Both the position numbers and the translations under genes were made by a program. From assembly GCF_006364435.1 (NCBI RefSeq), contig NZ_CP040977.1, positions 1,116,001 to 1,180,000 on the forward strand: a DNA stretch of 64,000 bases, read 5' to 3'. How positions within the stretch are numbered: the first letter of the stretch is position 1; each line of letters opens with the position of its first letter. The notes under the pieces were generated by a model, which was given only the letters and a program-made list of their open reading frames with translations, was not told the DNA's origin and did not search any database. Below are positions 10,010 to 24,643 of this stretch, piece after piece. This DNA comes from Candidatus Methylopumilus universalis. GTDB taxonomy: Bacteria; Pseudomonadota; Gammaproteobacteria; Burkholderiales; Methylophilaceae.

Positions 10010-11152
10010 ATGCCTTATTACATCAAAGGAAACAAAATTGAATTGCTTAAAAACGGCAAAGATTATTTTGCCGCTGTTATTCAATCCATCAAAAAAGCCC
10101 GAAAAAGTATTTTTATAGAGGCCTATATATTTAGCCATGATGTGACGGGTAAGAAAATCTTAACCGCGCTTAAAGAAGCTAGCCAAAAAGGGATTAAAGT
10201 TTATTTGCTTCTTGATGGATTCGGAAGCCGTGATCTCTCACAAAAAGTTATTAATGAAATCAAGGCCTCTAAAATTCACTTCCTTTTTTACCATCCTAAA
10301 ATTTCACCTTATCAAATGAAACGCATTTCATTAAGACGACTTCATCGCAAAATGATTTTAATCGACCATGAAATCGCCTATATCGGCGGTATCAATATTA
10401 TTGATGATATGCATGTACCCAATGGCAAAGGGCCACGCATTGACTATGCGGCGCAATTAAAAGGGCCTGTCGTTCATCTCATCAGCCTAAGTATGGTGAA
10501 ACTTTGGAAAAGAGTGTCATGGTCACATTTAGAAAAATCATTTACTCCAAAAAATTTCCAAAAACAAATAGCGGAATATCCCAATGGCACAAAACTTAAT
10601 TTTATTGAGCGTGATAATTTTCGCCACAGACAAGATATTGAAAAAGCTTATTTACATGCTATCGAAAATGCTCAGAACGAAATACTTATTGCAAATGCCT
10701 ACTTTATTCCAGGTAAAAGATTTGAGAGGGCTTTAATTGCAGCGGCACATCGTGGTGTATCGGTAACGCTTCTCTTAAAGGGCGAAATAGATTATTTCTT
10801 ATCCAACGCTACACGAGCCTTTTATGGAAAATTTTTAAAAGAAGGAATTGCCATCTTTGAATACACAAAAAGTTTTATGCATAGTAAGGTGGCAGTAATT
10901 GATGGAACCTGGTCGACTATAGGATCTTCTAATATTGATCCTTTCAGCCTTTTGCTTGCCCGAGAAGCAAATATTTTTATTTGGGATAAATCTTTTGCAT
11001 CTCAACTTAAGAAAAATATCGAAGAAGATATTCGATTAGGAGGTACTGAGATTCTCTTAAAGGACTGGGACAAATCATACTTAATTAAAAGAATAAAATC
11101 TCGTATTGCATATTTTATTATTCGGATAAGTTTAGGTGTCGCTAATATTTAA
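10010..11152 (+). CDS. clsB: phospholipase D-superfamily cardiolipin synthase (ClsB-like)
   Basis: A 380-residue enzyme with two HKD motifs, LHRKMILID (about residue 115) and MHSKVAVID (about 290), each followed by the conserved GG/GS-N segment (GGINI, GSSNID). This pair defines the PLD superfamily. There are no N-terminal transmembrane helices, which points to the ClsB type rather than ClsA. ClsB makes cardiolipin from phosphatidylglycerol and a second phospholipid at the inner membrane. The gene follows the hupB terminator closely and overlaps the stop of the convergent pentapeptide gene by 4 nt. The exact substrate remains inferred. Confidence 0.85.
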   Translation: MPYYIKGNKIELLKNGKDYFAAVIQSIKKARKSIFIEAYIFSHDVTGKKILTALKEASQKGIKVYLLLDGFGSRDLSQKVINEIKASKIHFLFYHPKISPYQMKRISLRRLHRKMILIDHEIAYIGGINIIDDMHVPNGKGPRIDYAAQLKGPVVHLISLSMVKLWKRVSWSHLEKSFTPKNFQKQIAEYPNGTKLNFIERDNFRHRQDIEKAYLHAIENAQNEILIANAYFIPGKRFERALIAAAHRGVSVTLLLKGEIDYFLSNATRAFYGKFLKEGIAIFEYTKSFMHSKVAVIDGTWSTIGSSNIDPFSLLLAREANIFIWDKSFASQLKKNIEEDIRLGGTEILLKDWDKSYLIKRIKSRIAYFIIRISLGVANI

Positions 11153-12096
11153 GGCATACCACAATCATGGCACTTGCCCTTAACCGTAGAAAACCCTTTT
11201 ACTGTTGACAGACCCTTAACATTCGTAAAAATTGCGCCATCCACAATGGCATCAGTTAAATCTGCATTTGTAAGATCAGCTCCTGTTAAATCTGCTTTAC
11301 TTAGATCAGCGCGATACATATTCGTATTTTTTAAATTCGCCTCTCTTAAATCACCAAATAAAAAACTCGCAATATTTAAATCGGCACCTTCAAAATTTGT
11401 TTTATAAAATTTACCGCCCACTGAATCAAATTTCATTTGTCCCATCGGCTGATTGCCAACATCCAAACCAAATTGACCATTTTTGATGGTAGCGCCTGAC
11501 ATATTGACTGCACCCAGTGTGCCGATCATACGAGCCCTTGTTAAATTAGCACCCTTAAAATTAGTGTCACCAAAAATCGCCTGAAAGATAGTTGCTTCAG
11601 TTAAGTTAGCCCCTGAAAAGTTTGCTTTTTCAAGGCGCGCTAAATTCAAATAAGCTCTTTGCATATTAGTATTCGCTAAATTTGCACCTATAAGATTGGC
11701 ACCAAAGACACTCGTATTAATCATTTTGCAGTGACTTAAGTCTAAACCATTCATATCAAGATACCCTAAGTCTTTATTCGAAAAATCACAATCAGGACTT
11801 TTGATTTCTTTCAGCACATCCTCTTGAGATACCTTTTTACGATCAATTTCTTTATTTTTTTCGTAAAAAACTTCAGCTTTCTTAATAAAGTCATTTGGTG
11901 TTTTTAAAAAGATATCCTTACTTACCTCGCTTCCAAAGCAATAAACCTTACCTTGATAATTTGCATTGACCGAACAGTCAGTTTTAAGGAAATTTCCTTC
12001 AGATAAACTTAAGAGGCAGTAATTTCCGAACTCGCCTGCGAAAACTAAATTTGTAATAAGGAGTAAAAATAATATCCAATATCTCTTTAATAACAT
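11149..12096 (-). CDS. exported pentapeptide-repeat protein
   Basis: A 315-residue protein from ATG 12094-12096. An ATG 15 codons upstream is possible, but the shorter form begins directly with a signal peptide (LLKRYWILFLLLITNLVFAG) and has AGGAT 8 nt ahead. After the signal comes a Cys-containing region, then a long series of pentapeptide repeats of the A(D/N)LXX type (ANLTEA, ADLSKADLTGADLTNADL), which fold into a right-handed quadrilateral beta-helix. A CHDC pair at the C-terminus may form a disulfide. Periplasmic location is inferred from the signal peptide; function is unknown. Confidence 0.8.
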   Translation of the reverse strand: MLLKRYWILFLLLITNLVFAGEFGNYCLLSLSEGNFLKTDCSVNANYQGKVYCFGSEVSKDIFLKTPNDFIKKAEVFYEKNKEIDRKKVSQEDVLKEIKSPDCDFSNKDLGYLDMNGLDLSHCKMINTSVFGANLIGANLANTNMQRAYLNLARLEKANFSGANLTEATIFQAIFGDTNFKGANLTRARMIGTLGAVNMSGATIKNGQFGLDVGNQPMGQMKFDSVGGKFYKTNFEGADLNIASFLFGDLREANLKNTNMYRADLSKADLTGADLTNADLTDAIVDGAIFTNVKGLSTVKGFSTVKGKCHDCGMP

Positions 12097-12156
12097 GGCA
12101 ATACATCCTAAAGTTTTTGATTTATTATAAACCTTTATCATTTCAGATTTTTAATT

Positions 12157-12852
12157 ATGTCAAATAACAGATATACGGTTCTTATCACTGGTGCGAATAG
12201 GGGATTGGGCCTTGAATTCGTCAAACAGTATGCTGTAGATGACTATGAAGTCATCGCATGCACAAGAAGGATCAATAAGAATGATGATCTTCATCGACTT
12301 CAAGCTTCTTTTGAAAATATTTCTATTCAAGCTCTTGATGTTGAAAATTTTCTGGCAATTGATCAACTTGCAAAAACATTAAAAAAATCTATTGATATTT
12401 TGATTAATAATGCAGGGCTTTACCCAAATAGCTCATTCGATGCTATTGACTATGAAGCATGGCTTGATGCTTTCAAAATTAATACACTTGCTGCATTTAA
12501 AATGACAAAGGCTTTTCTTCCCCACCTTAAAAAAGGTGAATTAAAAAAAATAGCATCGCTCACAAGCAAGATGGGAAGTATTGATGACAATGCAGGTGGC
12601 GGTGAATATCTTTATCGATCAAGCAAAACTGCACTTAATATGGTCATGAAAAGTTTATCGATTGATTTAAAACCTTATGACATGAGTCTTATTACGCTTC
12701 ATCCGGGATGGGTAAGAACAGATATGGGAGGACCTAATGGGCTCATTGACGCTGAAGAGAGTGTGATTGGGATGAAACGTCAAATTGATAAACTTTCAAT
12801 GAAGACTTCGGGCCAGTTTATTGCTTACGATGGCAAAAAAATTCCTTGGTAA
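12157..12852 (+). CDS. short-chain dehydrogenase/reductase
   Basis: A 231-residue classical SDR. The nucleotide-binding glycine motif TGANRGLGLEF is at residues 11-21, NNAGLY near 86 stabilises the Rossmann sheet, and YRSSK near 152 provides the catalytic Tyr and Lys with a Ser nearby (SLTSKMGS). It resembles the CsgA/C-factor-like branch often annotated only as SDR oxidoreductase; substrate and cofactor choice cannot be read from the sequence. It is divergent from the pentapeptide gene and ends before a two-way terminator. Confidence 0.85.
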   Translation: MSNNRYTVLITGANRGLGLEFVKQYAVDDYEVIACTRRINKNDDLHRLQASFENISIQALDVENFLAIDQLAKTLKKSIDILINNAGLYPNSSFDAIDYEAWLDAFKINTLAAFKMTKAFLPHLKKGELKKIASLTSKMGSIDDNAGGGEYLYRSSKTALNMVMKSLSIDLKPYDMSLITLHPGWVRTDMGGPNGLIDAEESVIGMKRQIDKLSMKTSGQFIAYDGKKIPW

Positions 12853-12924
12853 TAAAAACATTTTCAGATCTTCACATTAAAGAATCTATCGAGTTTTATT
12901 TTTTCTTGTCCTATTGCAAAAGAA

Positions 12925-12949
12925 AAAAGCCACTTACTAAGTGGCTTTT
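12925..12949. terminator. bidirectional terminator between SDR and PepSY genes
   Basis: An 11-bp stem (AAAAGCCACTT / AAGTGGCTTTT) with a 3-nt loop is flanked by A-rich and T-rich runs on both sides. It can serve the SDR gene on the plus strand and the PepSY gene on the minus strand. Confidence 0.85.
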
Positions 12950-12965
12950 CTAGTTATAGAAAAAA

Positions 12966-13283
12966 TCAACCTTTATCTATACTGTCTTCAATGATTGTCG
13001 CTAATTCTGCATCACATTCAATTTCCCAACGTTTACCGTCAGCACCCTGAATATCAATATCAAATATAGGTCGACCATCCTCTTTTTCCATTTCAATTTC
13101 TACAATTGCTCCAGGATGTTTTTCTAATGCAGTTTTTATGCAAGTACTCATTACTTCATTGTGTTTTTTTAAATCCAGAATCACTGGTCTATCATCATGC
13201 TTATAATCATTACCATAGAATAAAACAGCTCCGACGAGGCCTGCCACAATCACCAGGGCTAATATAGCTAAAGATTTTTTCAA
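12966..13283 (-). CDS. small PepSY-domain protein, membrane-anchored or exported
   Basis: A 105-residue protein with an N-terminal hydrophobic segment (residues 4-23) that is a signal peptide or anchor. The rest is one PepSY domain: a helix with ALEKHPGAIVEIEME, then strands with DIQGADGKRWEIECDAE. PepSY domains occur in protease inhibitors and in periplasmic sensory or carrier proteins; the partner here is unknown. It follows the SoxYZ-like gene after a strong terminator, so it probably has its own promoter. Confidence 0.75.
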   Translation of the reverse strand: MKKSLAILALVIVAGLVGAVLFYGNDYKHDDRPVILDLKKHNEVMSTCIKTALEKHPGAIVEIEMEKEDGRPIFDIDIQGADGKRWEIECDAELATIIEDSIDKG

Positions 13284-13336
13284 AATATTCTCCTTAATTT
13301 AAATGCGTTGTAACGTTAAAACTAAAACCAAAAATC

Positions 13337-13370
13337 TGCAGACACAAAAGTTGTAGCTTTTGTGTCTGCA
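13337..13370 (-). terminator. terminator of the SoxYZ-like gene
   Basis: A perfect 14-bp stem (TGCAGACACAAAAG and its complement) with a 6-nt loop lies 6 nt after the SoxYZ-like stop. A T5 run follows on the minus strand. It separates that gene from the PepSY gene. Confidence 0.88.
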
Positions 13371-13375
13371 TCAAC

Positions 13376-14134
13376 TTATTTGCCAATATATTGCTTACCC
13401 TGTGTATCAACTGCAAGTACTTGAAGATTGCCTTTAATTTTTGGGGAATCAAAAACAAAGACAGGGTTTTCAGATGTGCTGCCACCGCCAAATTCTGCAC
13501 TCCATATTTCTTTTTCTTGATCTTTGACTACCACACTTGATAAATGCCACTCAGGAAGAATAAAAAGTCCTGTGTAGTTACTTAAATTAGCCTGATATCC
13601 ATTATGTTGGGGGTGTTTAATAAATACTGAAGCTCTCGTTTCGGTTTGTAATACTTTCATGGTACCCACTTCCTTTAATACCGCATCTGCATCATAAATC
13701 ATCCCTGCTGAGCAACCACCTGCTGATCGAATTACGACCTGATTATAAAAGAACCTTCCTTCATCGTCCTCAGCAATCACATCAATATAACTGTCTTGCT
13801 CCATGCGGATATTAGTTTCAAATGTGAAAGGTGCTACCTTAGGATGCATAGTTAAGGCTAGAGATCCAATGCCTGGTAACTGATGAGGATTACCTTCAAC
13901 CACCACTGAAATATTTTTATATTTTTTATTTGCTGTAAATTTAAAAGGAACTTGGGTTCCGTCTAGCGCTCTTTTAGCGACATCAAATGTGATGTCATCT
14001 GATTTGGTTAAAGATTTACCTTTAAAGTATTTGTCTATCACACCATCTAGATGATTTGGTGTTTCAGCGTGAACGCCCATAGGCGCGAAAGCGCTTACTA
14101 AGCTCAACAATATTGAAAAAACTATATTTTTCAT
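13376..14134 (-). CDS. quinoprotein dehydrogenase-associated SoxYZ-like carrier
   Basis: A 252-residue exported protein. ATG 14132-14134 is preferred because AAGGGGAG lies 8 nt ahead; an ATG 21 nt upstream would include that site. The signal peptide ends near VHA. The N-terminal half resembles SoxY and ends in a GGC-containing motif (GGCSAG, Cys about 141), where SoxY has its carrier cysteine (GGCGG). The C-terminal half resembles SoxZ. The family (fused SoxYZ-like) is known from genomes with PQQ alcohol dehydrogenases, so a periplasmic carrier role near XoxF is likely; the cargo is not known. Confidence 0.8.
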   Translation of the reverse strand: MKNIVFSILLSLVSAFAPMGVHAETPNHLDGVIDKYFKGKSLTKSDDITFDVAKRALDGTQVPFKFTANKKYKNISVVVEGNPHQLPGIGSLALTMHPKVAPFTFETNIRMEQDSYIDVIAEDDEGRFFYNQVVIRSAGGCSAGMIYDADAVLKEVGTMKVLQTETRASVFIKHPQHNGYQANLSNYTGLFILPEWHLSSVVVKDQEKEIWSAEFGGGSTSENPVFVFDSPKIKGNLQVLAVDTQGKQYIGK

Positions 14135-14222
14135 CACTTTAACTCCCCTTAACATTGCAGCAAAATTTATCTAAATATAATGCTCTCAAATGCATAAAAG
14201 TACAAGAAAACAGGCTTTTACA

Positions 14223-15422
14223 TTATCCACGATATCCTGGTTTCACTAATTTAAGATGAATATCACTGATTACTTTTTCCTTGAATCCGCCTTCACAATA
14301 AGCCAGGTAAAAGTGCCACATTCGAATAAATACATCATCAAACCCTAAAGCCTTTACTTCTTTGATATTTGCAAAAAAAGCCTTTCTCCAAAAAGCCAGC
14401 GTTCTGGCGTAATGATCACCAATATCTTGAACATTATAAATTTTTAAATCTGAGGATTGCGTAATGCTATTTTGTAAAGCTGTCAAAGAGGGAATACAAC
14501 TACCCGGGAAAATATATCTTTGAATAAAGTCAACAGATCGCTTAGCTTTTTCATAGCGTTGATCTGCAATCGTAATGGTTTGTATGAATGCAATACCATT
14601 AGGTTCCAATAACTGAGCACACACTTCAAAATAAGTATCGTAATACTGATAACCGACAGCTTCTAGCATTTCAATAGATACTAATTTGTCATAACGACCT
14701 TTTAAATGCCGATAATCTGAAAGTAACACGTTAATCTTATGCGTTAATTTTAAATCTTTAATTTTTTGTTTTACATAGAGAAACTGTTGTTTTGAAATAG
14801 TTGTAGTCGTTACTTTGCATCCATAATTTTGCGCAGCATAAATAGCAAAACCTCCCCAGCCAGAGCCAATTTCAATCACATGATCATGAGAGGATAATTC
14901 AAGTCCTTGGCATACCTTTTCTAATTTATAAATGGATCCTTTATGAAGCGAGTCATGAGGATTTTTAAACACAGCGGATGAATACATCATGGTTGCATCT
15001 AAAAAAAGCGAGAAAAAATTATTGCCCAAATCATAATGTTTAGAAATGTTAACGCGGCTACCTTTAACTGAATTTTGATTTAAGTAGTGGAGTGTTTTAA
15101 GTATTGGCTTTAGAAAAACATTAAATAAGCCTTCTAATTGATCCATTGCATTTTGATTGATAGCCATAATACGAATAAGCTGAGTTAAATCGTTTACAGA
15201 CCAAAACTTTTGCATAAAGGCCTCGCTCACACCAATGGAGCCTCCAAATGCTAGCGCGCCATAGAATCTCGGGTCATGCACGGTTATATGAGCACTTAAT
15301 TTCCCTTTATTTCCGAAAGAAAAACTTTTGCCTCCTTCTTGAACAGCGATATAGCCTATATCAATTTTCTTTAACTGATTAAAAACAAGGGATCTAGCTA
15401 AATGATGTAATGGATTTTTCAT
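14223..15422 (-). CDS. cyclopropane-fatty-acid synthase-like methyltransferase (first copy)
   Basis: A 399-residue S-adenosylmethionine-dependent enzyme of the CFA synthase family. An N-terminal domain of about 100 residues precedes the Rossmann-type methyltransferase domain; the SAM loop reads EIGSGWGGFA (about residue 172). SKHYDLGNNFF and the C-terminal YCEGGF are typical of true CFA synthases, which add a methylene to the double bond of phospholipid acyl chains. It is the last gene of the eight-gene lipid operon, 16 nt after the DUF1365 gene. Related enzymes make methylated or furan fatty acids instead, so the product is uncertain. Confidence 0.85.
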   Translation of the reverse strand: MKNPLHHLARSLVFNQLKKIDIGYIAVQEGGKSFSFGNKGKLSAHITVHDPRFYGALAFGGSIGVSEAFMQKFWSVNDLTQLIRIMAINQNAMDQLEGLFNVFLKPILKTLHYLNQNSVKGSRVNISKHYDLGNNFFSLFLDATMMYSSAVFKNPHDSLHKGSIYKLEKVCQGLELSSHDHVIEIGSGWGGFAIYAAQNYGCKVTTTTISKQQFLYVKQKIKDLKLTHKINVLLSDYRHLKGRYDKLVSIEMLEAVGYQYYDTYFEVCAQLLEPNGIAFIQTITIADQRYEKAKRSVDFIQRYIFPGSCIPSLTALQNSITQSSDLKIYNVQDIGDHYARTLAFWRKAFFANIKEVKALGFDDVFIRMWHFYLAYCEGGFKEKVISDIHLKLVKPGYRG

Positions 15423-15438
15423 AAGAATAATTGAAAAT

Positions 15439-16170
15439 TTATGGATGTGGAAAAAAAGTAATGCCTTTTATCTTTAGGCATAATGCTTGCCAATAAATGG
15501 ATAGGATTGTTTTAAAAGTTTCGGGTGGGAATCTGAAAAGTAAAAAATTCAGTGATTGCTTTGTTAAAGGTTTTTTTTGTAGTTGCATCGATGCATTAAA
15601 AATAAATTCTTTCTCGTGGATGTTACTCATAAACACTTCTATCTTATCTCCCGGCTCTTTAAAGCTCCAACGGTATTGAATATTCATTGGCATAAAAGGT
15701 GATACATGGAAATTCTTCCTAAATTCGAAAGTTTTGATTGGTGTCTTTATATTTCTGCAGTCATGGACATAAGCATGATTTTCATTCCAAGGTGTATTGG
15801 TAATATGCGACACAATAACTTCTAACTTATTTTTTGTATTAAAGCAGTAATAAAAACTCACTGGATTAAAACAATATCCAAAATAACGTGGGCTCGTCAG
15901 TAAATATACTTTTCCATGATGATTAAAATTGAGCTCTTTTCTAATTTCATCCTGTATGGATTTTTTTAAGTTTATTTTTTTATTACCAAAGTAATCTGAC
16001 CTTAAAAAGCAGCCAAAATTAAATTTGTTATAACTCCAAAAGAAGTTACCTGAAAACATAGTGTCTATATTGTCCAAATCCAGATACAGCAAACGGATTC
16101 GGTACTCGAATGTATGCGTTTTCGGCTTCGACCGGGAATGTTTGAGGGAACCTTCATAAATGGCATTCAT
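15439..16170 (-). CDS. DUF1365 protein of the lipid operon
   Basis: A 243-residue protein of the DUF1365 family. Recognisable stretches are YEGSLKHSRSKPKTHTFEYR at the N-terminus and SPRYFGYCFNPVSFYYCF near residue 110; length is normal. The biochemical role is unproven. Family members almost always sit between an FAD oxidoreductase and a CFA-like methyltransferase, as here, with 2 nt to the gene before it. A role in the same fatty-acid modification is therefore inferred. Confidence 0.85.
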   Translation of the reverse strand: MNAIYEGSLKHSRSKPKTHTFEYRIRLLYLDLDNIDTMFSGNFFWSYNKFNFGCFLRSDYFGNKKINLKKSIQDEIRKELNFNHHGKVYLLTSPRYFGYCFNPVSFYYCFNTKNKLEVIVSHITNTPWNENHAYVHDCRNIKTPIKTFEFRKNFHVSPFMPMNIQYRWSFKEPGDKIEVFMSNIHEKEFIFNASMQLQKKPLTKQSLNFLLFRFPPETFKTILSIYWQALCLKIKGITFFPHP

Positions 16171-16172
16171 TT

Positions 16173-17417
16173 TTAAAATCTATGTATCTCGTTAAACTGC
16201 TTAATCGCAACTAAAGCACTTTTGACACCATCCTCGTGAAATCCATTCCCCCAATAAGCCCCAGCAAAGGAAGTGCGATTTATTCCTGAAATCAGATGAT
16301 AATTTGATTGGGCCACTATACTTTGCAAGCTATATTGTGGGTGGGCGTAGGAAAGCTTTTTGATAATTTTCTTCCTATTAATTTTTTCTTGCGGATTTAA
16401 TGTCACTAAAATCGGTACATTTGTAATTAGATTTTGCAATATATTCATATTGTATGTCAGAGACACAGGGGCATGAATATTTTGATTGATATGATAATTC
16501 CACGCCGCCCAAGCTAGCTTTCTTTTGGGCATAAAGTTCTCGTCATAATGCAAGATGACTTCATTATCTGTGTAAGGTATTGCCTTTAAAATACTTTTTT
16601 CATCTTGAGTGGGGTTTTTAATTAATTTCAATGCTTCATCACTATGGCAAGCAAAAAATACCCAATCAAACTTTTCAGTTCGGTCTTGAAATTGAATAAT
16701 CACATGGTCACTTTTTCTATCAATAGACTGTATTTTTTCATTGAGCTTAATTTTACTCGCAAAAGATGCAGTTAACTTTTTTACATAATTCACTGAGCCG
16801 CCTTTGATAGTAAGCCACTGGGGTCTATCATTGACATTCAACATGCCATGATTATCGAAAAACCGTACAAAAAATTTTGCGGGAAATTCCATCATGGTTT
16901 TATAGTTAGAAGACCATATAGCAGAGCCCATCGGCAATATATAATATTTTTTAAAAAATTCAGAGTAGGCTTCTTGATCAAGATACTCACCTAAACTTAT
17001 TTCTTTATTGCTATTTAAAAGTAAGGTGGAATTTTTATTAAATCGAAGAATTTCTTTGATCATCTTATAAAATGTTGGGCTTATAAGATTTTTTCTTTGC
17101 GCAAACAGTGCATTTAAATTTGTTCCGTTATATTCAAAATCTTTTTGACTATCTTTGACACTAAAGCTCATAGCACTATTTTCGTATGGCACATGAAGCT
17201 CATGTAATAGATCTAAAAAATGTGGGTAGGTTTTTTTATTAAAGACAATAAAACCTGTATCTACATGAAACTTTTGATTAAATAAATCGATGGCATGGGT
17301 ATGTGAGTGCCCCCCTACTCTTGAGTTATTTTCAAATAGCGTAATGTGGTGATTCGAATTTAGATGGTAAGCAAGTGTATTGCCAGAGATACCTGATCCT
17401 ATAATTGCTATTTTCAT
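16173..17417 (-). CDS. FAD-dependent oxidoreductase (amine-oxidase-like) of the lipid operon
   Basis: A 414-residue flavoprotein. It begins with the dinucleotide-binding motif IIGSGISGNTLA (residues 4-15) followed by an acidic strand end and RVGGHSHT, the FAD pattern of the amine oxidase/desaturase class. The C-terminal NGFHEDGVKSA segment is the second FAD contact. Such proteins are the constant neighbours of DUF1365 and CFA-like genes and are thought to oxidise or desaturate an acyl chain at the membrane; the reaction here is inferred. Spacing to both neighbours is 2 nt. Confidence 0.85.
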   Translation of the reverse strand: MKIAIIGSGISGNTLAYHLNSNHHITLFENNSRVGGHSHTHAIDLFNQKFHVDTGFIVFNKKTYPHFLDLLHELHVPYENSAMSFSVKDSQKDFEYNGTNLNALFAQRKNLISPTFYKMIKEILRFNKNSTLLLNSNKEISLGEYLDQEAYSEFFKKYYILPMGSAIWSSNYKTMMEFPAKFFVRFFDNHGMLNVNDRPQWLTIKGGSVNYVKKLTASFASKIKLNEKIQSIDRKSDHVIIQFQDRTEKFDWVFFACHSDEALKLIKNPTQDEKSILKAIPYTDNEVILHYDENFMPKRKLAWAAWNYHINQNIHAPVSLTYNMNILQNLITNVPILVTLNPQEKINRKKIIKKLSYAHPQYSLQSIVAQSNYHLISGINRTSFAGAYWGNGFHEDGVKSALVAIKQFNEIHRF

Positions 17418-17419
17418 AG

Positions 17420-18361
17420 CTAATGATGAAGATGTTCTATTTTTTTAGATTCTCGGATATTGTCAGAAACCGTGCGCACATCCCATATCACACCTATCAT
17501 CGCTAAAAATTTCAAAACGTAATAAGTTAAATCTATTTCCCACCAATAAAAACCTTGCCTTGCAGAGCCGGGATAGTGGTGGTGGTTATTATGCCAGCCT
17601 TCACCAAACGTCAAAAGCGCAATAATAAAATTATTACGACTGGTATCTTTAGTTTCGTATCTTTTTTTTCCCCATTGGTGCGCCACTGAATTTACTAAAA
17701 AAGTAGCGTGATAAAGCATCACTGTAGAGAGCGAAAATCCCCAAATGAATAATTGGAATCCATTCGTATTTAATTGCGGCTCATATTGATTTAGGTAATG
17801 ACCAGCAATAAATAAGCCAATCGACAATCCTAAAGGCATTAAAAGATCAAACCGATCAATGATTCGCAACTCTGGAAATCTTATAAGCTCTCGAATAAAT
17901 TTCGTATTAGTCACGAAATTTGATTTAGTTAAAAACCATCCCATATGACTCCACAAAAAGCCGTGCTCTTTTGGTGAGTGCTTATCTTCAGAAGTATCTG
18001 AGTGCATATGATGACCGCGATGGTGCGCTGCCCACCAGAGAGGTCCTCTTTGAACTGCAGTAGCACCAATCATAGCGAAAAGAAGCTGAACGAAACGGGA
18101 GGTCTTAAAAGTTTTATGAGAAAAGTAACGGTGATAGAAACCTGTGATCGCGAACATGCGAATTGCAAAAAGAGAGATACATAGTATAAAAGCAATCCAA
18201 CTAAAACCTACAACGAAGATTAATAAACAAGACAAATGAAGAAGAATAAATGGAATAACTCTCATCCAATCAATCTCCTTGCCATTTGTGATTGATGCAT
18301 ACTTTTCTTCAAGAAAAGAATTATCAAACCAAAAAAATAGTTTTTTAAAAAATTGACTCAT
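17420..18361 (-). CDS. fatty acid (acyl-CoA delta-9 type) desaturase
   Basis: A 313-residue membrane di-iron desaturase. The three histidine boxes are intact: HRYFSH (about residue 77), HHRGHH (about 113) and HNNHHH (about 258). Four hydrophobic helices separate them, as in stearoyl-CoA desaturases. It would introduce a cis double bond into a saturated acyl chain, making the substrate for CFA-like enzymes in the same operon. There is no fused cytochrome b5 domain, so electrons must come from a separate donor. It is embedded with 2-nt gaps in the lipid operon. Confidence 0.9.
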   Translation of the reverse strand: MSQFFKKLFFWFDNSFLEEKYASITNGKEIDWMRVIPFILLHLSCLLIFVVGFSWIAFILCISLFAIRMFAITGFYHRYFSHKTFKTSRFVQLLFAMIGATAVQRGPLWWAAHHRGHHMHSDTSEDKHSPKEHGFLWSHMGWFLTKSNFVTNTKFIRELIRFPELRIIDRFDLLMPLGLSIGLFIAGHYLNQYEPQLNTNGFQLFIWGFSLSTVMLYHATFLVNSVAHQWGKKRYETKDTSRNNFIIALLTFGEGWHNNHHHYPGSARQGFYWWEIDLTYYVLKFLAMIGVIWDVRTVSDNIRESKKIEHLHH

Positions 18362-18363
18362 TA

Positions 18364-18885
18364 TTAATTTGAATGCTCAATCCAACGTAATTTCTTAATA
18401 TCGTAACCATCATCTTCAATTTTTTTGACTAGGTTTTTTAGTGTATCTTGATCTATCTTTTTTTGGCGTGACATGATCCACACGTAATCACGATCGTCTC
18501 TAGCAATAATCGTATTTTGGTAATTTTGATCTAAATAAACAATTTTATATTGTGCTTTGATAGGCCATATAAATTGCATGCCCCATAAGGCATTGCCAGA
18601 CCCTTTCATCACAAAACCTTTAGGGTGATATGTTTTAACAGGTCCTGATAAAGATCCCTCATTAAAAGTGAAGGTTGTGCCGATCGTACCGTCTTCATTT
18701 AGTTCGTATGACTCGATGGCATTAAATGCATTTTTTTCAATAAAGGTTGGAATGTGAGCAATAACAAACCATGGCCCCATAAATGACTTTAAGTTTACTT
18801 CAGGAACCGTTTTAATCGGGGCTTGACTCATACATCCACTCAATAATAAAAAAAATGCTGCCAGTAGGGAATATTTATATCGCAT
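18364..18885 (-). CDS. blc: lipocalin family lipoprotein (Blc-like)
   Basis: A 173-residue outer-membrane-type lipoprotein. The lipobox LLSGC puts the acylated Cys at about residue 18. The mature part is a bacterial lipocalin: the GPWFVIAHIP segment is the first signature (equivalent to GxWY), and DRDYVWIMSR matches the conserved later strand. Bacterial lipocalins bind fatty acids or lysophospholipids in the periplasm. Placement inside the lipid operon suggests carriage or repair of the modified lipids. Confidence 0.88.
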   Translation of the reverse strand: MRYKYSLLAAFFLLLSGCMSQAPIKTVPEVNLKSFMGPWFVIAHIPTFIEKNAFNAIESYELNEDGTIGTTFTFNEGSLSGPVKTYHPKGFVMKGSGNALWGMQFIWPIKAQYKIVYLDQNYQNTIIARDDRDYVWIMSRQKKIDQDTLKNLVKKIEDDGYDIKKLRWIEHSN

Positions 18886-18886
18886 A

Positions 18887-19645
18887 TTATGCCTTCCAGA
18901 ATCGAGGAATTAAAGTATTTACTTTTTTCTTGTAAGTTTGATACTCATCAAATTTTTTAACGAGATTAGCCTCAAGAAGTGTCACACCTGAAAATCTTAA
19001 TATCAAAAAGGTCATAAGAAGTGGCGTTACTAAATTAAAATGAATTCCTGTGGTAAGGGTTGTCATAAAAAAGCCCCACCAAACTAAAAGCTCACCAAAA
19101 TAGTTTGGATGCCGACTAAATTTCCATAACCCTGATTGTAGAAGCTTCCCGCGATTTTTTATGTTGCTCTTAAATAGCATTAATTGATAATCGGCGACTG
19201 ACTCATAAACAATCCCAAATAATGCTATTGAAAACCCTAATATATCTATCCAAATTAAAGGATGATCATTTTCTATTGCAATAAAAAGAATCGATCCCAC
19301 GATCCATGAAAGAACAGATTGGAGTCCAAAAATAATATAGGCACTTTTATATCTAAAATTGGGTTCGTTATTTTTTCGAATTTTTAAGTAACGCGCATCT
19401 TCTGATTTTCCCCAATTTCTTATCGTAAGATAAATCGAAAGGCGAGCACCCCACAGAAAAACTAATAAAAGAACCAGAGCAGACCTTAATGACGGCGTAA
19501 ATGCTGTATAAAAATAAATCGCATTGAGTACAAAAAATAAACCCCACATAATATCAACATGAGTCACATTATTTTTTTTAAGGCTAATAAGCCAGCCAAG
19601 GCATGCGAACAAAACATTAATGATTAATGCATTTAAATAGATCAT
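18887..19645 (-). CDS. DUF1295 membrane protein (steroid 5-alpha-reductase/ICMT-like)
   Basis: A 252-residue polytopic membrane protein. The start at 19643-19645 is fixed by a 4-nt ATGA overlap with the upstream gene; a longer form would overlap 40 nt. The conserved C-terminal segment SRHPNYFGELLVWWG belongs to the DUF1295/steroid 5-alpha-reductase-like superfamily, which shares the NAD(P)H or SAM-binding fold of isoprenylcysteine methyltransferases. Members often accompany CFA-like genes. Substrate unknown; a reductase or methyltransferase acting on membrane lipids is inferred. Confidence 0.83.
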   Translation of the reverse strand: MIYLNALIINVLFACLGWLISLKKNNVTHVDIMWGLFFVLNAIYFYTAFTPSLRSALVLLLVFLWGARLSIYLTIRNWGKSEDARYLKIRKNNEPNFRYKSAYIIFGLQSVLSWIVGSILFIAIENDHPLIWIDILGFSIALFGIVYESVADYQLMLFKSNIKNRGKLLQSGLWKFSRHPNYFGELLVWWGFFMTTLTTGIHFNLVTPLLMTFLILRFSGVTLLEANLVKKFDEYQTYKKKVNTLIPRFWKA

Positions 19646-20148
19646 GTGCGAAATCCATTCCACTTTCCTGCAATAAGCAAGCAAACTGGGGTTAAGATGG
19701 CCCAGCCAAGCGCTAGGGCATATATTGAAAATTGATTTGTAAGTTGAACTGCATTTAATTGCTCTGCCGCAAAGTAAGCTACAGGGCCACCGATAAACCC
19801 AAATAAAACAGCTAGCACCCTATTAGATTTAAGCCAGCTCAAGGAGAGATTGAGTGTGGTTGCAAATAATCCCCACATAGCGACAATCCAAACAGGTACG
19901 AGAGTATCAAAGAATTGATTCTGATAGGTTACTAAATTTGTAATTAATAGTAACTGATCGAATATCGAGCCCAATAGCATGATGATCAATAGCAGCAGAG
20001 TGGCCTCTTTTTTTCGCGAGGCTTGCATAATATGAGCCAATAAAATCAAAGCTACAACCATCATAGATAAAGGTAGCTTTTGATTGGCAGCTCCCCATAC
20101 CGAGATAAACCAGCCCAGCTGAAAAAGTACAAAATTAATTAATTTCAT
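19642..20148 (-). CDS. DUF2878 membrane protein
   Basis: A 168-residue protein with about five hydrophobic helices, matching the DUF2878 family (N-terminal NFVLFQLGWF; C-terminal LGWAILTPVCLLIAG). No activity is known for the family. In other proteobacteria it accompanies DUF1295 and CFA-like genes, as here. The start directly abuts the stop of the preceding methyltransferase gene, and the end overlaps the next start by 4 nt, so translation of the three is probably coupled. Confidence 0.78.
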   Translation of the reverse strand: MKLINFVLFQLGWFISVWGAANQKLPLSMMVVALILLAHIMQASRKKEATLLLLIIMLLGSIFDQLLLITNLVTYQNQFFDTLVPVWIVAMWGLFATTLNLSLSWLKSNRVLAVLFGFIGGPVAYFAAEQLNAVQLTNQFSIYALALGWAILTPVCLLIAGKWNGFRT

Positions 20149-21204
20149 TTATTTCTTTGGTCTCTGAAATTGATAATGCGTAACCCACCACTCCTGGCCA
20201 TCACGATATCCAAATAATTCAGCACAGGCCATATAAAAAATACGCCACCGATTAAACCATTGCGTCGCATGTTGATTACCATATGTTTTTCTAAGAATAG
20301 GATAAATGTCTGATTTCTTCTCATCCATATTATCTAACCATGCATTGGCTGTCTTTTCATAATGGGTTCCATCCCAACACCATTTTTGATTCAGTTTTAA
20401 ATGCTCTTGAAAATGTAAAGGCAGATCATCGCTTGGCATCATTCCGCCTGAAAAGAAAAATTTGCTCATCCAGTCATCCTTATCTTTTACTTCAAATGCA
20501 TAAGGTGTATGTTGATGCACAAAAATATGCATAAAGAATTTGCCACCGGGCTTTAACCAATCATGAAGCATTCGATAAAGCTTTCTATGATTTCGCATAT
20601 GCTCGAACATTTCAATTGAGACAACTCGATCAAAAGCTTTTGGAATCTTAAAATTTTTAGGTTGGAATCGATTCATATCGCATGTGATGACATGGATATT
20701 TTTAAGCTTTCTTTTTTTCGCCTCAGTCTCAATAAAAACCCTTTGACTGTTTGAATTAGATACCGCAAATATTCGACTTTTCGGATACTTCTGAGCCATA
20801 AAAAGCGTTAAAGATCCCCAGCCACATCCAAGCTCTAAAATAGTTTGTCCATTTTTTAAATCAGCATGTGCGGCACTGATATTCAGCGCATTAAATTCTG
20901 CATCATCTAAATGATTCGTTTGGCTATCCCAATAACAACTACTATATTTTTTATGTTTACCTAAACAAAAATCAAAGAAAGAAGATGGCACTTCATAGTG
21001 TTGTTTGTTTGCAAGGTGAGGAACTAAAGCGATAGGAGAGTCATCCATGCTTTTCAAAAATGCACTTTTTAAATCTTGTGATTTTTCTGAATCTTGATTG
21101 CTGATTTCATCAAGGCGTTTCTTTAAAAGCTGTCTGATTCCAAAACGGATGAGTGAGTCTGGGAGCAACCCTTTTTCAGCAAGTAATAGAGCTTGTTTTA
21201 ACAT
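20149..21204 (-). CDS. cyclopropane-fatty-acid synthase-like methyltransferase (second copy)
   Basis: A 351-residue SAM-dependent methyltransferase, first gene of the lipid operon. The SAM loop reads ELGCGWGSLT (about residue 122), and the CFA-family SIEMFEHMRN segment is present. It differs from the other copy in N-terminal domain and in its C-terminus (GYRDGQEWWVTHYQF), so the two are not recent duplicates. This subtype is usually found with DUF2878. It may methylate a double bond or a different lipid; the product is unknown. The gap to the protease/TPR gene upstream is only 37 nt, so the operon may begin with that gene. Confidence 0.83.
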   Translation of the reverse strand: MLKQALLLAEKGLLPDSLIRFGIRQLLKKRLDEISNQDSEKSQDLKSAFLKSMDDSPIALVPHLANKQHYEVPSSFFDFCLGKHKKYSSCYWDSQTNHLDDAEFNALNISAAHADLKNGQTILELGCGWGSLTLFMAQKYPKSRIFAVSNSNSQRVFIETEAKKRKLKNIHVITCDMNRFQPKNFKIPKAFDRVVSIEMFEHMRNHRKLYRMLHDWLKPGGKFFMHIFVHQHTPYAFEVKDKDDWMSKFFFSGGMMPSDDLPLHFQEHLKLNQKWCWDGTHYEKTANAWLDNMDEKKSDIYPILRKTYGNQHATQWFNRWRIFYMACAELFGYRDGQEWWVTHYQFQRPKK

Positions 21205-21241
21205 AATGAAATATTTTATTAAAGTTTATAGATACGAAATC

Positions 21242-22246
21242 TTACTTTAACTTATCTAATTTATTCAAAATAACTTCTGCGAGACTTGTATTTAATTGAT
21301 TGACCTTTTTTTGAATATTTTGTAGAGCTACTAAATCCTTTTCAGATTCGGCTATGTCTGCTAACCCCATCATGGCATCCACATGTCTCGGATTTATTCT
21401 TTCAGCCTTCGAAAATGCTTCTTTAGCGGCTTTAAGATCTTTTTTTCCTTGGCCAGCTAGCCCCAAAAAATACCAAGCATCAGATGAGTTCGGCTCTTCT
21501 TTAATCCACAAATCTGAAATAGACTTAAGCGCATCCCACTCTTTATTTTGGTAAGGAATCACCACTTTCATAAAATAAGGCTTTTGTTCGAATGGCATGG
21601 CCCAAAAAGGAATATCTAAGGTTTTAAGTGATTTAGTATCAGGTTCCTTCATAAGCTTTTTAATCCACTCTACTGGCAAACTGTAAAAGAACCCTTGAGG
21701 CCCTGGACTTTTAAATGTTGTAATACCGATTAAATTATATTTTTCATCAAATAGGCCACCTCCGCTAGAACCAAGAGCAAAGGCCGCATCTGATCTAATA
21801 ATGACACTGCTATCCAAGCGATGTATCGCCTTAACAGACCCATAAGATGGCTGTGGCACATTGCTCCCATTTGGATAGCTCACACTAAATACATCTTCTT
21901 CGTATTGGAGTGTTTGGCTGTCTCGAAGCGAGACTGGTGTAAATGGTAATTCTTCAAACTTTAATAAACATAAATCATGTTTCCAATCAGCCTTAAATGC
22001 TATTGGCTTATATGTATTATCGTATTTAGAAATATTGGCGCCCATTGTATTCGCTATCACATGGCAGTCAGTTGCAACATACTCCTTACTCACAACAACA
22101 CCTGTTCCAGTGCCTGAGGAGCCATCGGGAAAATCAACATTAACAACTACAATTGAATTATTAAGCTCTAATAATTTTTCAAAAGTGGGGATTGCTTCTG
22201 CTTGTGTCGCAATGAGCAATAAAAATAAACTTATCGTATGTTTCAT
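21242..22246 (-). CDS. periplasmic trypsin-like serine protease with TPR tail
   Basis: A 334-residue exported protein (signal peptide about residues 1-18, ending AEA). The first ~200 residues form a chymotrypsin-fold protease with a complete triad: His62 in TDCHVI, Asp91 in KHDLCLL, Ser161 in GSSGGG. No PDZ domain is present, so it is not a DegP/DegQ protease. The last ~100 residues contain two or three TPR-like repeats (AWYFLGLAGQGKKDLKAAKE). A role in periplasmic protein quality control is plausible but unproven. It lies 37 nt upstream of the lipid operon on the same strand. Confidence 0.8.
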   Translation of the reverse strand: MKHTISLFLLLIATQAEAIPTFEKLLELNNSIVVVNVDFPDGSSGTGTGVVVSKEYVATDCHVIANTMGANISKYDNTYKPIAFKADWKHDLCLLKFEELPFTPVSLRDSQTLQYEEDVFSVSYPNGSNVPQPSYGSVKAIHRLDSSVIIRSDAAFALGSSGGGLFDEKYNLIGITTFKSPGPQGFFYSLPVEWIKKLMKEPDTKSLKTLDIPFWAMPFEQKPYFMKVVIPYQNKEWDALKSISDLWIKEEPNSSDAWYFLGLAGQGKKDLKAAKEAFSKAERINPRHVDAMMGLADIAESEKDLVALQNIQKKVNQLNTSLAEVILNKLDKLK

Positions 22247-22297
22247 GGTCTATGTGACTCCAAGATTTAAATATCGTTCATAGTGGCGTCTTAAAAA

Positions 22298-22660
22298 ATG
22301 ACAATTAAAAATGTTCTCGGCACAAAATTAGAAGTGTGCAACCTAAACCCTATCACAGGATTCACTAGAAATGGATGCTGTGAGACAGGTCCCGAAGATA
22401 TCGGCCAGCACACGGTATGCGCAGAAGTTACCCAAGAATTCCTCCAGTTCTCTAAATTAAAAGGTAATGACTTAATGACCCCAAGGCCTGAATATGAATT
22501 TACGGGACTTAAAAAGGGAGATCGTTGGTGTCTATGTTCCAACCGATGGCTTGAGGCTTTAGAAGAAGGTATCGCACCTCCTGTCGTTTTAGAGGCTACA
22601 CATGAAAAAGCTTTAGAAATTATTGATCTTGCAGAACTCAAATACCACCAAATAAGGTAA
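22298..22660 (+). CDS. DUF2237 family protein
   Basis: A 120-residue protein matching the DUF2237 family, with diagnostic stretches NPITGFTRNGCC, TVCAEVT and GDRWCLC. Several of its conserved cysteines could bind metal or form disulfides; there is no signal peptide. Function is not established. It is followed after 3 nt by the pterin dehydratase gene, so the two probably form one transcript. Divergent from the protease gene with a 51-nt gap. Confidence 0.85.
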   Translation: MTIKNVLGTKLEVCNLNPITGFTRNGCCETGPEDIGQHTVCAEVTQEFLQFSKLKGNDLMTPRPEYEFTGLKKGDRWCLCSNRWLEALEEGIAPPVVLEATHEKALEIIDLAELKYHQIR

Positions 22661-22663
22661 TCC

Positions 22664-22948
22664 ATGGCTTACAACGCAAAAGAAATAGAAGAAAAATTAA
22701 CGCTTAAATGTACATCCTGGTCTTATATTTTTCCTTCAATTGAAAGAAAATTCTTAACGCAGAGTTTTGATGAATCGATTCGCATAGCAAATGAAATTGC
22801 AAAAATTGCGAACCAATTAAATCATCATCCAGAACTCGTATTTAAACATAATGAACTGATCATTAGAACTCATACCCACAGCGCGTCAGGCATTACAGAT
22901 AAAGATTTTGAATTGGCGGAAAAAATTGATCAATTACTCTTGATTTAA
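22664..22948 (+). CDS. phhB: 4a-hydroxytetrahydrobiopterin dehydratase (pterin carbinolamine dehydratase)
   Basis: A 94-residue protein of the PCD/DCoH family. The active-site signature NQLNHHPEL (HHPE) near residue 50 and the later RTHTHSASGITDKD segment are both present. It dehydrates 4a-hydroxy-tetrahydropterin formed by pterin-dependent hydroxylases. No phenylalanine hydroxylase is visible in the window; in bacteria without one, PCD-like proteins have been linked to molybdopterin or folate metabolism. The 3' end overlaps the convergent peroxiredoxin gene by 15 nt. Confidence 0.88.
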   Translation: MAYNAKEIEEKLTLKCTSWSYIFPSIERKFLTQSFDESIRIANEIAKIANQLNHHPELVFKHNELIIRTHTHSASGITDKDFELAEKIDQLLLI

Positions 22949-23479
22949 ATTTTTTAATTTAAGTATTTTTAAATCCTCAATAATTTCTTGGCTATGTTTT
23001 GAGGTATCTACGCTCAGATAAATTTTTGCAATCTTGCCTTGAGGGCTAATCAGATACGTATATCTTTTAGCAAGCTTAATCACTAAAAAGTTGTTTAATG
23101 CCCCGTAGCTATTGGCAACATCTCCTGAAGTATCTGACAAAAGAGGAAAAGGTAAATTATATTTTTCAGCAAATTTCTTATGAGAAAAGCTATCATCAAT
23201 ACTTACACCAATGACTTTAGCGCCTAAAGCCTCTAGCGTTTTAAAATCATCTCTAAACTGACAAGCTTCCTTAGTACATCCAGGCGTATCATCCTTCGGA
23301 TAAAAATATAGAACAACCCATTTGCTTTTGTAGTCAGACAAACTGACTTGATTGCCTTGGCTATCTGGAAGTGTAAAAGTTGGTGCGTCATCACCAATCT
23401 TTAAAATAGGTGCTGCCATCACATTTGCTCTAAGCAAATAAAATACAAGAGCAATCCCAATTAAAATAAAAATTTTCAT
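22934..23479 (-). CDS. bcp: peroxiredoxin of the BCP/PrxQ type, with N-terminal signal or anchor
   Basis: A 181-residue thiol peroxidase. An N-terminal hydrophobic stretch (about residues 3-22) suggests export or anchoring, unlike cytoplasmic BCP of E. coli. The active site DTPGCTKEACQFRD holds the peroxidatic Cys68 and, five residues on, the resolving Cys73 of the atypical 2-Cys BCP type. It reduces hydrogen peroxide and lipid hydroperoxides using thioredoxin-like donors. A periplasmic location would fit lipid-peroxide defence near the lipid operon, but this is inference. Confidence 0.88.
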   Translation of the reverse strand: MKIFILIGIALVFYLLRANVMAAPILKIGDDAPTFTLPDSQGNQVSLSDYKSKWVVLYFYPKDDTPGCTKEACQFRDDFKTLEALGAKVIGVSIDDSFSHKKFAEKYNLPFPLLSDTSGDVANSYGALNNFLVIKLAKRYTYLISPQGKIAKIYLSVDTSKHSQEIIEDLKILKLKNLNQE

Positions 23480-23499
23480 ATAAATATATTAACCTTTCA

Positions 23500-23928
23500 T
23501 TAACGAATCGTCTTAATAAGCTCCAAAAGCTTTGTGGTCATTTTAATGAGCGTCTCTTTTAAAACTTTTGCCTGATCGGCTATGATTGATTCACTCCTAT
23601 CATCTGCATCTGATGCCTGAAGATCTTCAATATAAAAAAGACGGCTATCAAGCTTCAACCATAAAATCAGAACCATGATTCTTTCTTGGTTTGGAAATGA
23701 CAATCCTTTAAGCCATTTTCTTGCAGACTCTTGTGAGATATGAAGTGAGGTTTTTTTACATTGTTTATTAAACTGAGTCGCAAAATAAAGCGCAGAAATA
23801 CTTTTAGATTTGTATTTAAGTCTCAATGCTTTGTTAAGTTCAGCTGAAAATAATTTATGTGTATTCATATTTAGCAAATTAACTAGTACATCCAATTTAT
23901 CGTCCCCCATTCCATCTATAAGTTGCAT
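23500..23928 (-). CDS. small HTH-like transcriptional regulator
   Basis: A 142-residue protein. The middle section (FATQFNKQCKK, ISQESARKWLKG, PNQERIMVLILWL) matches a phage-repressor-like HTH family common in betaproteobacteria, in which the regulator recognises an inverted repeat. The C-terminus is a short amphipathic helix. The start is uncertain: a second ATG 20 codons in (23868) gives a more typical N-terminus, and neither has a strong Shine-Dalgarno. It faces another HTH gene across 84 nt. Target unknown. Confidence 0.6.
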   Translation of the reverse strand: MQLIDGMGDDKLDVLVNLLNMNTHKLFSAELNKALRLKYKSKSISALYFATQFNKQCKKTSLHISQESARKWLKGLSFPNQERIMVLILWLKLDSRLFYIEDLQASDADDRSESIIADQAKVLKETLIKMTTKLLELIKTIR

Positions 23929-23981
23929 TTATAAAGGCTTTGTAACTTCGACTTCAAACTATGTCGTCTAAGAATGACAGA

Positions 23982-23999
23982 ATTATTTTTTAAAATAAT
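23982..23999. repeat. 18-nt palindrome between two divergent HTH genes
   Basis: ATTATTTT and AAAATAAT form a perfect 8-bp dyad with a 2-nt centre, located 13 nt before the GTG start of the plus-strand HTH gene. It lies where a repressor could block that gene and is a candidate operator for one or both neighbouring regulators. Confidence 0.4.
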
Positions 24000-24012
24000 G
24001 CATAGTGATTAG

Positions 24013-24246
24013 GTGAACAAACTTTCCAAAATAGACAGTACCTTCGGTATCATTCTTCGAAAAAAAAGGCTTAGCAAAAAACTTACGCAAGAAGCTTTGT
24101 CAATTGAATCCAGTCTTTCTCGAGCTTATATCAGCGAATTAGAAATGGGCCATAAAGACCCAAGTCTCTATACGATATTTAAGTTAGCTACCGCTTTAAA
24201 AATTAAACCTTCCACAATTATCGACGAAGTCGAGCGTCAGATTTAA
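24013..24246 (+). CDS. small Xre-type HTH regulator
   Basis: A 77-residue protein starting with GTG. It is essentially one helix-turn-helix of the Xre/Cro type: IILRKKRLSKKLTQEALS, then SRAYISELEMGHKDPSLYTIFKLATAL, ending with IKPSTIIDEVE. Such single-domain proteins act as dimeric repressors. There is no toxin gene next to it. It ends 6 nt before the convergent 86-residue gene. Its target is unknown but may be its own promoter palindrome. Confidence 0.78.
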   Translation: MNKLSKIDSTFGIILRKKRLSKKLTQEALSIESSLSRAYISELEMGHKDPSLYTIFKLATALKIKPSTIIDEVERQI

Positions 24247-24252
24247 TTCAAA

Positions 24253-24513
24253 TTACTGAGGTGGTGCAGCAGGTGCTTTTCTACCTGGCGCTGCTGGCGG
24301 TGTGTAGCCTGCGATACGACACTGAATACCTTCAACAAGTTTACCTTTGGCGCCATGTTGAATAATGGTACATGTCTGAATTAAATTCTTGCTTTGTAAT
24401 TCTGAAATAGTTTTTCTTAACTCTTTTAAATCAATCCCTGTATCTTTTACGATCTCGTGATCAATTTTTTGTCCATGTTTTTGTAAATATTTTAATACCA
24501 CTTCTTTTGTCAT
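24253..24513 (-). CDS. small winged-helix-like protein of unknown function
   Basis: An 86-residue protein with a good Shine-Dalgarno (GAAAGG). Residues 1-55 read like a winged helix (VLKYLQKHGQKIDHEIVKDTGID, then LRKTISELQSKNLI), followed by a strand pair and a Pro/Ala-rich tail (PPAAPGRKAPAAPP). It is probably DNA-binding, but no regulon is suggested. It lies about 40 nt downstream of tRNA-Ile2 and rpoD on the same strand with no terminator visible in between, so it may be carried on the rpoD transcript. Confidence 0.6.
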   Translation of the reverse strand: MTKEVVLKYLQKHGQKIDHEIVKDTGIDLKELRKTISELQSKNLIQTCTIIQHGAKGKLVEGIQCRIAGYTPPAAPGRKAPAAPPQ

Positions 24514-24552
24514 ATTGTTACCTTTCTTTTTACTTACTTTTTAATTCTAATT

Positions 24553-24629
24553 TGGTGGGCCCACCTGGACTCGAACCAGGGACCAAAGGATTATGAGTCC
24601 TCTGCTCTAACCAACTGAGCTATAGGCCC
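24553..24629 (-). tRNA. tRNA-Ile2 with CAT anticodon (lysidine-modified)
   Basis: A 77-nt cloverleaf with a 7-bp acceptor stem (GGGCCTA / TGGGCCC, one G-T pair), encoded CCA, D-loop AGCTCAGTTGG and T-arm GGTTCGAGTCC. The anticodon loop is CTCATAA, anticodon CAT. CAT could be Met, but the GGGCC acceptor end, the GGACTCATAATCC anticodon arm and the position after rpoD fit betaproteobacterial tRNA-Ile2. In that tRNA the anticodon C is converted to lysidine by TilS to read AUA. It lies 14 nt after the rpoD stop and is probably processed from its transcript. Confidence 0.85.
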
Positions 24630-24643
24630 TCTGATAGATTAAT

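Follow-up and report, generated by a model that had tools for sequence, protein, structure and literature searches.

What would a bacterium make with two methyltransferases resembling cyclopropane fatty acid (CFA) synthases, a desaturase, an oxidoreductase and a lipocalin, all encoded side by side? This question is raised by a 64,000-nucleotide stretch of the genome of Candidatus Methylopumilus universalis (contig NZ_CP040977.1, positions 1,116,001 to 1,180,000; henceforth termed the window), in which eight genes occupy positions 14223–21204 of the minus strand. An initial annotation had attributed to them a modified fatty acid that might be methylated, cyclopropane or furan. This general proposal found support and could be narrowed to a furan, probably dimethylated, whereas cyclopropane synthesis was rejected as the main reading. 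From gene identities, clade membership, linkage and conservation, we infer reactions, a product and a role: on the acyl chains of membrane phospholipids, the operon likely makes furan fatty acids that carry first one and then two methyl groups.

The operon and its Ufa-like core

All eight open reading frames were recovered at their annotated positions, and Pfam bore out the family label of each, in agreement with the initial description of packed minus-strand genes. Intergenic gaps range from -4 to 16 nucleotides, provided that the DUF1295 gene starts at ATG 19645 and not at the upstream TTG. The same eight genes recur in the same order among Methylophilaceae relatives, and comparison with two close relatives gave ratios of nonsynonymous to synonymous substitution rates (dN/dS) of 0.05–0.13 for every gene; all eight are under purifying selection. 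Because the order recurs and each gene is constrained, the arrangement is not due to chance, and the eight-gene minus-strand operon is real. Across 187 Methylophilaceae genomes the set is not scattered: DUF1365 and DUF2878 genes are present in 127 and 125 genomes, respectively, with nearly identical distributions, and both the window's streamlined genus and its larger relatives have kept the full operon. Part of a sister genus with small genomes, probably OM43-like, has it split into two intact blocks about 70–95 kilobases (kb) apart, lipocalin-desaturase-UfaD-UfaO-UfaM and FufM-DUF2878-DUF1295. Many larger relatives additionally encode a protein of about 208 amino acids with an apparent signal peptide between DUF1295 and the lipocalin (e.g., L048:11681-12307 and L047:4875-5498), which is missing in the genus of the window. 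One member of this genus (G086; about 40 contigs, 97% complete) lacks DUF1365 as well as DUF2878; the entire operon may have been lost, or the assembly may have a gap there.

The initial annotation had pointed to the furan fatty acid (ufa) genes of alphaproteobacteria, and the likeness extends beyond that claim, as UfaM-, UfaD-, UfaO- and FufM-like proteins are all present. In Rhodobacter sphaeroides and Rhodopseudomonas palustris, UfaM methylates cis-vaccenate with a shift of the double bond, UfaD introduces a conjugated double bond, and the DUF1365 protein UfaO forms the furan using O2; together, the three are required and suffice for the monomethyl furan acid (PMC7380195). A Halomonas ufaM gene adjoining ufaD and ufaO yields an 11-methyl product in Escherichia coli (PMC12089945). 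The last three genes of the operon (17417 down to 14223) match RPA2571-2569 (UfaD-UfaO-UfaM) both in family and in order. At their center lies the DUF1365 gene (15439–16170, minus strand), whose product scores 251 bits with PF07103, for which the cut-off is 25; this places it in the UfaO family and suggests O2-dependent formation of the furan ring. Its predicted structure (predicted local distance difference test score, pLDDT, 95) consists of a beta barrel and a long C-terminal helix; the best matches in a fold search, OlmO/OssO spirocyclases and heme-binding nitrobindins, reach Z ≤ 7.5, which is too weak for naming a cofactor.

The adjacent flavin adenine dinucleotide (FAD) oxidoreductase (16173–17417, minus strand; Amino_oxidase 62 bits, NAD_binding_8) appears to be UfaD-like, which would assign it the second, conjugated double bond. 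We base this assignment on its position next to UfaO, on a second cluster type in Methylophilaceae that resembles RSP1089-1087, and on the plant protein AT3G23510, to which UfaD is reported to be similar (PMC10940516). In the second cluster type, that of genus g7 (loci compared: L042, L050 and L095, from genera g2 and g7), UfaD-UfaO-UfaM are accompanied by genes for chalcone-isomerase-like, transporter, DUF3833-like and short-chain dehydrogenase/reductase (SDR) proteins and DUF2878 is absent; judged by labels read from the sequence, the transporter, DUF3833-like and SDR proteins of one genus are close in size to RSP1089-1087. Its existence beside the operon type of the window indicates that the family contains two kinds of ufa cluster. 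The third core protein, the UfaM-like methyltransferase encoded by the last gene (14223–15422, minus strand; CMAS 261 bits), falls in a DUF1365-linked clade with a support of 99.

Two methyltransferases outside the Cfa clade

The initial annotation had described two different CFA-like methyltransferases. They are indeed different, as they belong to two distinct clades, yet neither is a member of the classical Cfa clade. A tree of 108 methyltransferases, built without the named RSP2144 and RPA2569 sequences, separates FufM-like (support 100) and DUF1365-linked UfaM-like proteins (99) from stand-alone Cfa. The groups also differ at residues 236/240/266/268 (E. coli Cfa numbering), which read G/H/H/I in 21/21 Cfa, E/A/Q/I in 58/58 UfaM-like and E/H/H/F in 29/29 FufM-like proteins; the UfaM-like set occurs in none of the 21 Cfa. 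Compared with the Cfa set C139/G236/H240/H266/I268, the UfaM-like protein of the window carries S/E/A/Q/I and the FufM-like one S/E/H/H/F. In line with this, the two proteins score 265 and 136 bits with the NCBIfam Cfa equivalog, for which the cut-off is 400. A classical Cfa was not found in the genome, in which just two CMAS genes exceed 100 bits, both within the operon. H266 of Cfa presumably binds the bicarbonate that serves as base; its exchange for Q266 removes this presumed ligand, consistent with a methyl transfer that ends differently.

The first gene of the operon (20149–21204, minus strand; CMAS 126 bits) encodes the other methyltransferase, whose best matches among proteins of solved structure are coclaurine N-methyltransferases (215 bits, versus 88 for E. 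coli-type Cfa). Judged by its sequence, it is a member of the coclaurine-N-methyltransferase-like clade, a group to which Arabidopsis AT4G33110 presumably belongs, and not a cyclopropane synthase; in the tree it sits in its own FufM-like clade (support 100). In R. palustris, FufM attaches another methyl group to the ring; it is required and sufficient for the dimethyl furan acid, methylates furan acid in vitro and is reportedly 26% identical to UfaM (PMC7380195). Its reported identity to AT4G33110 is 37.9% (PMC10940516). The window protein is most likely a FufM that would perform the same second methylation; this assignment to the family of RPA0924 is indirect and draws on shared plant relatives, a low identity to UfaM like that reported for FufM, and co-occurrence with DUF1365. 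Searching 398 Pseudomonadota genomes with the alignment of this protein yielded two separate groups, one of 33 genomes above 370 bits and one of matches at or below 132 bits; the 20 lower-scoring matches examined all carry the Cfa residues. DUF1365 is encoded in 30 of the 33 FufM-like genomes and in 123 of the 365 others (p = 9e-11, uncorrected for genome relatedness).

To survey gene neighborhoods, we used 80 named FufM loci, retrieved with the FufM-like protein of the window alone; many of their contigs are short, and the listing, filled with closer relatives, contains no Rhodopseudomonas. Within 10 kb of FufM, DUF1295 is the commonest neighbor (64/80), followed by UfaM (55/80), UfaD and UfaO (54/80), DUF2878 (45/80) and the desaturase (38/80). 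The desaturase and the lipocalin are most often the missing parts, whereas UfaM-UfaO-UfaD form a constant core. By their labels, these loci come from Pseudomonadota, Bacteroidota, Verrucomicrobiota, Planctomycetota, Acidobacteriota and other groups, and many of them belong to metagenome bins. FufM-like genes also occur on 44 plasmids, seven of them from Acinetobacter. One of these, pYUSHP14-1, encodes the lipocalin, desaturase, UfaD, UfaO, UfaM, DUF1295 and a FufM-like protein without DUF2878, about 1–2 kb from a cryptochrome/photolyase gene.

Accessory proteins, proposed pathway and rival readings

We propose accessory roles for the remaining four proteins. The acyl desaturase (17420–18361, minus strand; PF00487, FA_desaturase, 74 bits) carries HRYFSH/HRGHH/HNNHH boxes and is a candidate source of the monounsaturated chain. 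We considered that it might be the sole such source and rejected this idea because the genome encodes FabA (309 bits); probably, the desaturase feeds the furan pathway. The Blc-like lipocalin (18364–18885, minus strand; PF08212, Lipocalin_2, 126 bits), in whose translation a lipobox LSGC can be read, may act as a lipid carrier, and an accessory membrane protein belongs to DUF2878 (19642–20148, minus strand; PF11086 136 bits).

The second membrane protein, DUF1295 (18887–19645, minus strand, with ATG 19645 preferred over TTG 19684; PF06966 221 bits), was modelled with a pLDDT of 95. The model has the fold of delta-14 sterol reductase (Z 15.0) and steroid 5-alpha-reductase (Z 14.5), while matches outside the superfamily and one chloroplast complex chain score Z ≤ 5.9. 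Moreover, the DUF1295 profile retrieves 5-alpha-reductase (E 6e-7), and a membrane-bound NADPH-dependent reductase would be the likeliest class. The related ICMT fold is also similar (Z 11.7), and DUF1295 could thus possibly be a methyltransferase. Furan fatty acids that quench singlet oxygen or radicals open to a reactive ene-dione; NADPH-dependent steroid and sterol reductases reduce C=C bonds, those of enones in the case of 5-alpha-reductases. It is conceivable, though with little chance of proving correct, that DUF1295 repairs the spent furan lipid by reducing the ene-dione to a 1,4-dione that would lose water to regenerate the furan, so that one lipid could be reused many times. This idea draws on the reductase fold, the sequence similarity and the status of DUF1295 as the commonest FufM neighbor; the chemistry itself is our proposal.

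Taken together, biosynthesis would start with a cis-monounsaturated chain supplied by the desaturase alongside FabA. The UfaM-like enzyme would methylate this chain with a shift of the double bond, as known for UfaM, before the UfaD-like FAD enzyme introduces a second, conjugated double bond and the UfaO-like DUF1365 protein uses O2 to close the furan. The FufM-like enzyme would then place the second methyl on the ring, and processing or transport of the lipid might fall to DUF1295, DUF2878 and the lipocalin. Furan fatty acids, antioxidant lipids that scavenge radicals, have been found in fish, plants and some marine bacteria. Most likely, the product would shield the membrane of this surface-water bacterium, which bears rhodopsin, against singlet oxygen and radicals. 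The genome, a single contig of 1,304,290 bases, contains two adjacent rhodopsin genes, in agreement with the description of 'Ca. Methylopumilus' by Salcher et al. (PMC6794327).

Several observations weigh against this pathway and role. In plants, relatives of UfaM are able to form cyclopropanes, and hence the Q266 argument is no proof. A FufM-like gene occurs without DUF1365 in three genomes (G221, G550, G569) of one genus of large-genome bacteria, in which FufM may have another use. No LitR or dedicated stress regulator was seen in the genome of the window, and in Stenotrophomonas maltophilia, which carries a related cluster, singlet-oxygen tolerance was unaffected (PMC11832516). The cyclopropane-forming plant relatives could equally be cited for a reading in which both methyltransferases are cyclopropane synthases, making cyclopropane or simple methyl-branched acids for membrane stability. 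Both proteins are of the CMAS family, their S. maltophilia homologues carry CFA synthase annotations, and cyclopropane acids also increased when ufaM was expressed in E. coli, which itself has a Cfa (PMC12089945). We nevertheless consider this reading very unlikely and rejected it as the principal one on the basis of clade and active-site residues: neither protein groups with Cfa, both lack the residue set of all 21 Cfa, and the linked DUF1365 and FAD enzymes would be left unexplained.

The three genomes without DUF1365 bear instead on the dimethyl product. Only the monomethyl furan acid might be made, with the coclaurine-N-methyltransferase-like enzyme, DUF2878 and DUF1295 acting elsewhere, e.g., on an amine head group or another lipid. 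The closest solved relatives are plant alkaloid N-methyltransferases, and the FufM-DUF2878-DUF1295 block can move as one unit. That DUF1365 accompanies FufM in nearly all genomes, often in one operon, and that R. palustris FufM, reported closest to AT4G33110, acts on furan acid in vitro make this restriction unlikely. Scarcely probable is a unit that serves mainly desaturation and lipid transport for membrane fluidity, with modified chains as a side product; the built-in desaturase and lipocalin and the desaturase near almost half of the FufM loci would fit, but these are the parts most often absent around a constant core, and FabA already provides unsaturated chains.

If the synthesis of dimethyl furan lipids holds true, eight genes are devoted to them even in a freshwater plankton bacterium whose genome has shrunk to 1.3 Mb, and bacterial plankton would become a testable source of such lipids in food webs. 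The gene set is widespread among bacteria and has mostly carried cyclopropane-lipid labels. The cluster that goes under the name 'cyclopropane synthases' in Stenotrophomonas, and that also occurs in Xanthomonas, in several further phyla and on plasmids of Acinetobacter, would gain a concrete product, and DUF1295 and DUF2878 a pathway context. The signature residues offer a means of distinguishing Cfa, UfaM-like and FufM-like proteins.

Regulation, neighboring genes and known systems

As the initial annotation had stated, no sigma factor, ChrR or photolyase adjoins the operon; the nearest sigma gene is rpoD (24644–26584), which does not qualify as a specific regulator, and the genome has a photolyase gene elsewhere. 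Three genes with sigma-70 region 2 were found. One encodes an extracytoplasmic function (ECF) sigma factor and was rejected as a dedicated regulator since RseA/RseB-like genes follow it, not ChrR, for which no genome-wide search was made. A MerR-type light or stress regulator was likewise dismissed: the sole MerR_1 match is a short open frame of 150 amino acids beside an IHF-like gene, with no room for a B12 domain. A promoter scan was uninformative (20 sigma-70-like sites versus 35 expected by chance). The light or oxidative-stress role suggested initially is therefore backed through relatives and not by a regulator here. In relatives, ECF sigma/anti-sigma-like pairs or MerR-type regulators, as read from the sequence, or a photolyase neighbor the operon, and the blue-light response of Vibrio cholerae employs ChrR and a MerR protein (PMC5241685). 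In S. maltophilia, smlt2375-smlt2367 is under sigma-Ec/ChrR control, is strongly induced upon loss of ChrR and is required for the superoxide tolerance that follows this loss (PMC11832516). By analogy, photo-oxidative protection is a plausible role for the operon.

Upstream, at a distance of 37 nucleotides and on the same strand, lies a gene for a trypsin-like protease with TPR repeats (21242–22246, minus strand), which is kept at the operon in 6/6 aligned genomes of the genus and may be co-transcribed. Beyond it (22298–23479) follow genes whose products we labelled, from sequence reading, as DUF2237-like, pterin-4a-carbinolamine-dehydratase-like and peroxiredoxin-like; the last could also be tied to oxidative stress. 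Directly downstream, a protein with fused SoxY and SoxZ domains is encoded (13376–14155, minus strand). An Rfam scan of 11000–25000 gave no match inside the operon and one tRNA outside it.

Among characterized systems, E. coli Cfa shares with both methyltransferases the CMAS superfamily, S-adenosylmethionine dependence, phospholipid acyl chains as substrate and residues E239 and Y317. It differs by its separate clade and by the exchange of G236, H240 and H266 in the UfaM-like and of G236 and I268 in the FufM-like protein. The ufa genes of R. sphaeroides (RSP2144, RSP1090, RSP1091) and R. palustris (RPA2569-2571, RPA0924) have counterparts to all four furan enzymes in the window (PMC7380195). 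FufM is, however, encoded at a separate locus in R. palustris and absent from the R. sphaeroides account, whereas the window unites all four in one operon. Relative to these clusters, the window adds the desaturase, lipocalin, DUF1295 and DUF2878 and lacks the transporter, DUF3833 and SDR genes; no ChrR was seen.

The S. maltophilia cluster smlt2375-smlt2367 contains the same set of families, as judged from its annotation and from a named Stenotrophomonas relative (PMC11832516). The order in this relative, desaturase-FAD-DUF1365-UfaM-DUF2878-DUF1295-FufM-lipocalin, agrees with the published smlt annotations and differs from that of the window; further differences are an extra periplasmic protein and the adjoining sigma-Ec/ChrR genes. 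The S. maltophilia report names two CFA synthases and an acyl-CoA desaturase, gives no product and never mentions furans (PMC11832516), and a literature search for furan fatty acids and Stenotrophomonas returned nothing relevant. The four activities have also been proposed, by homology to UfaM, UfaD, UfaO and FufM, for the lipid-droplet proteins AtUFAMD1, AtUFAO1 and AtFUFM1/LIME1 of Arabidopsis; there, UfaM- and UfaD-like parts reside in one protein and the genes at separate loci (PMC10940516).

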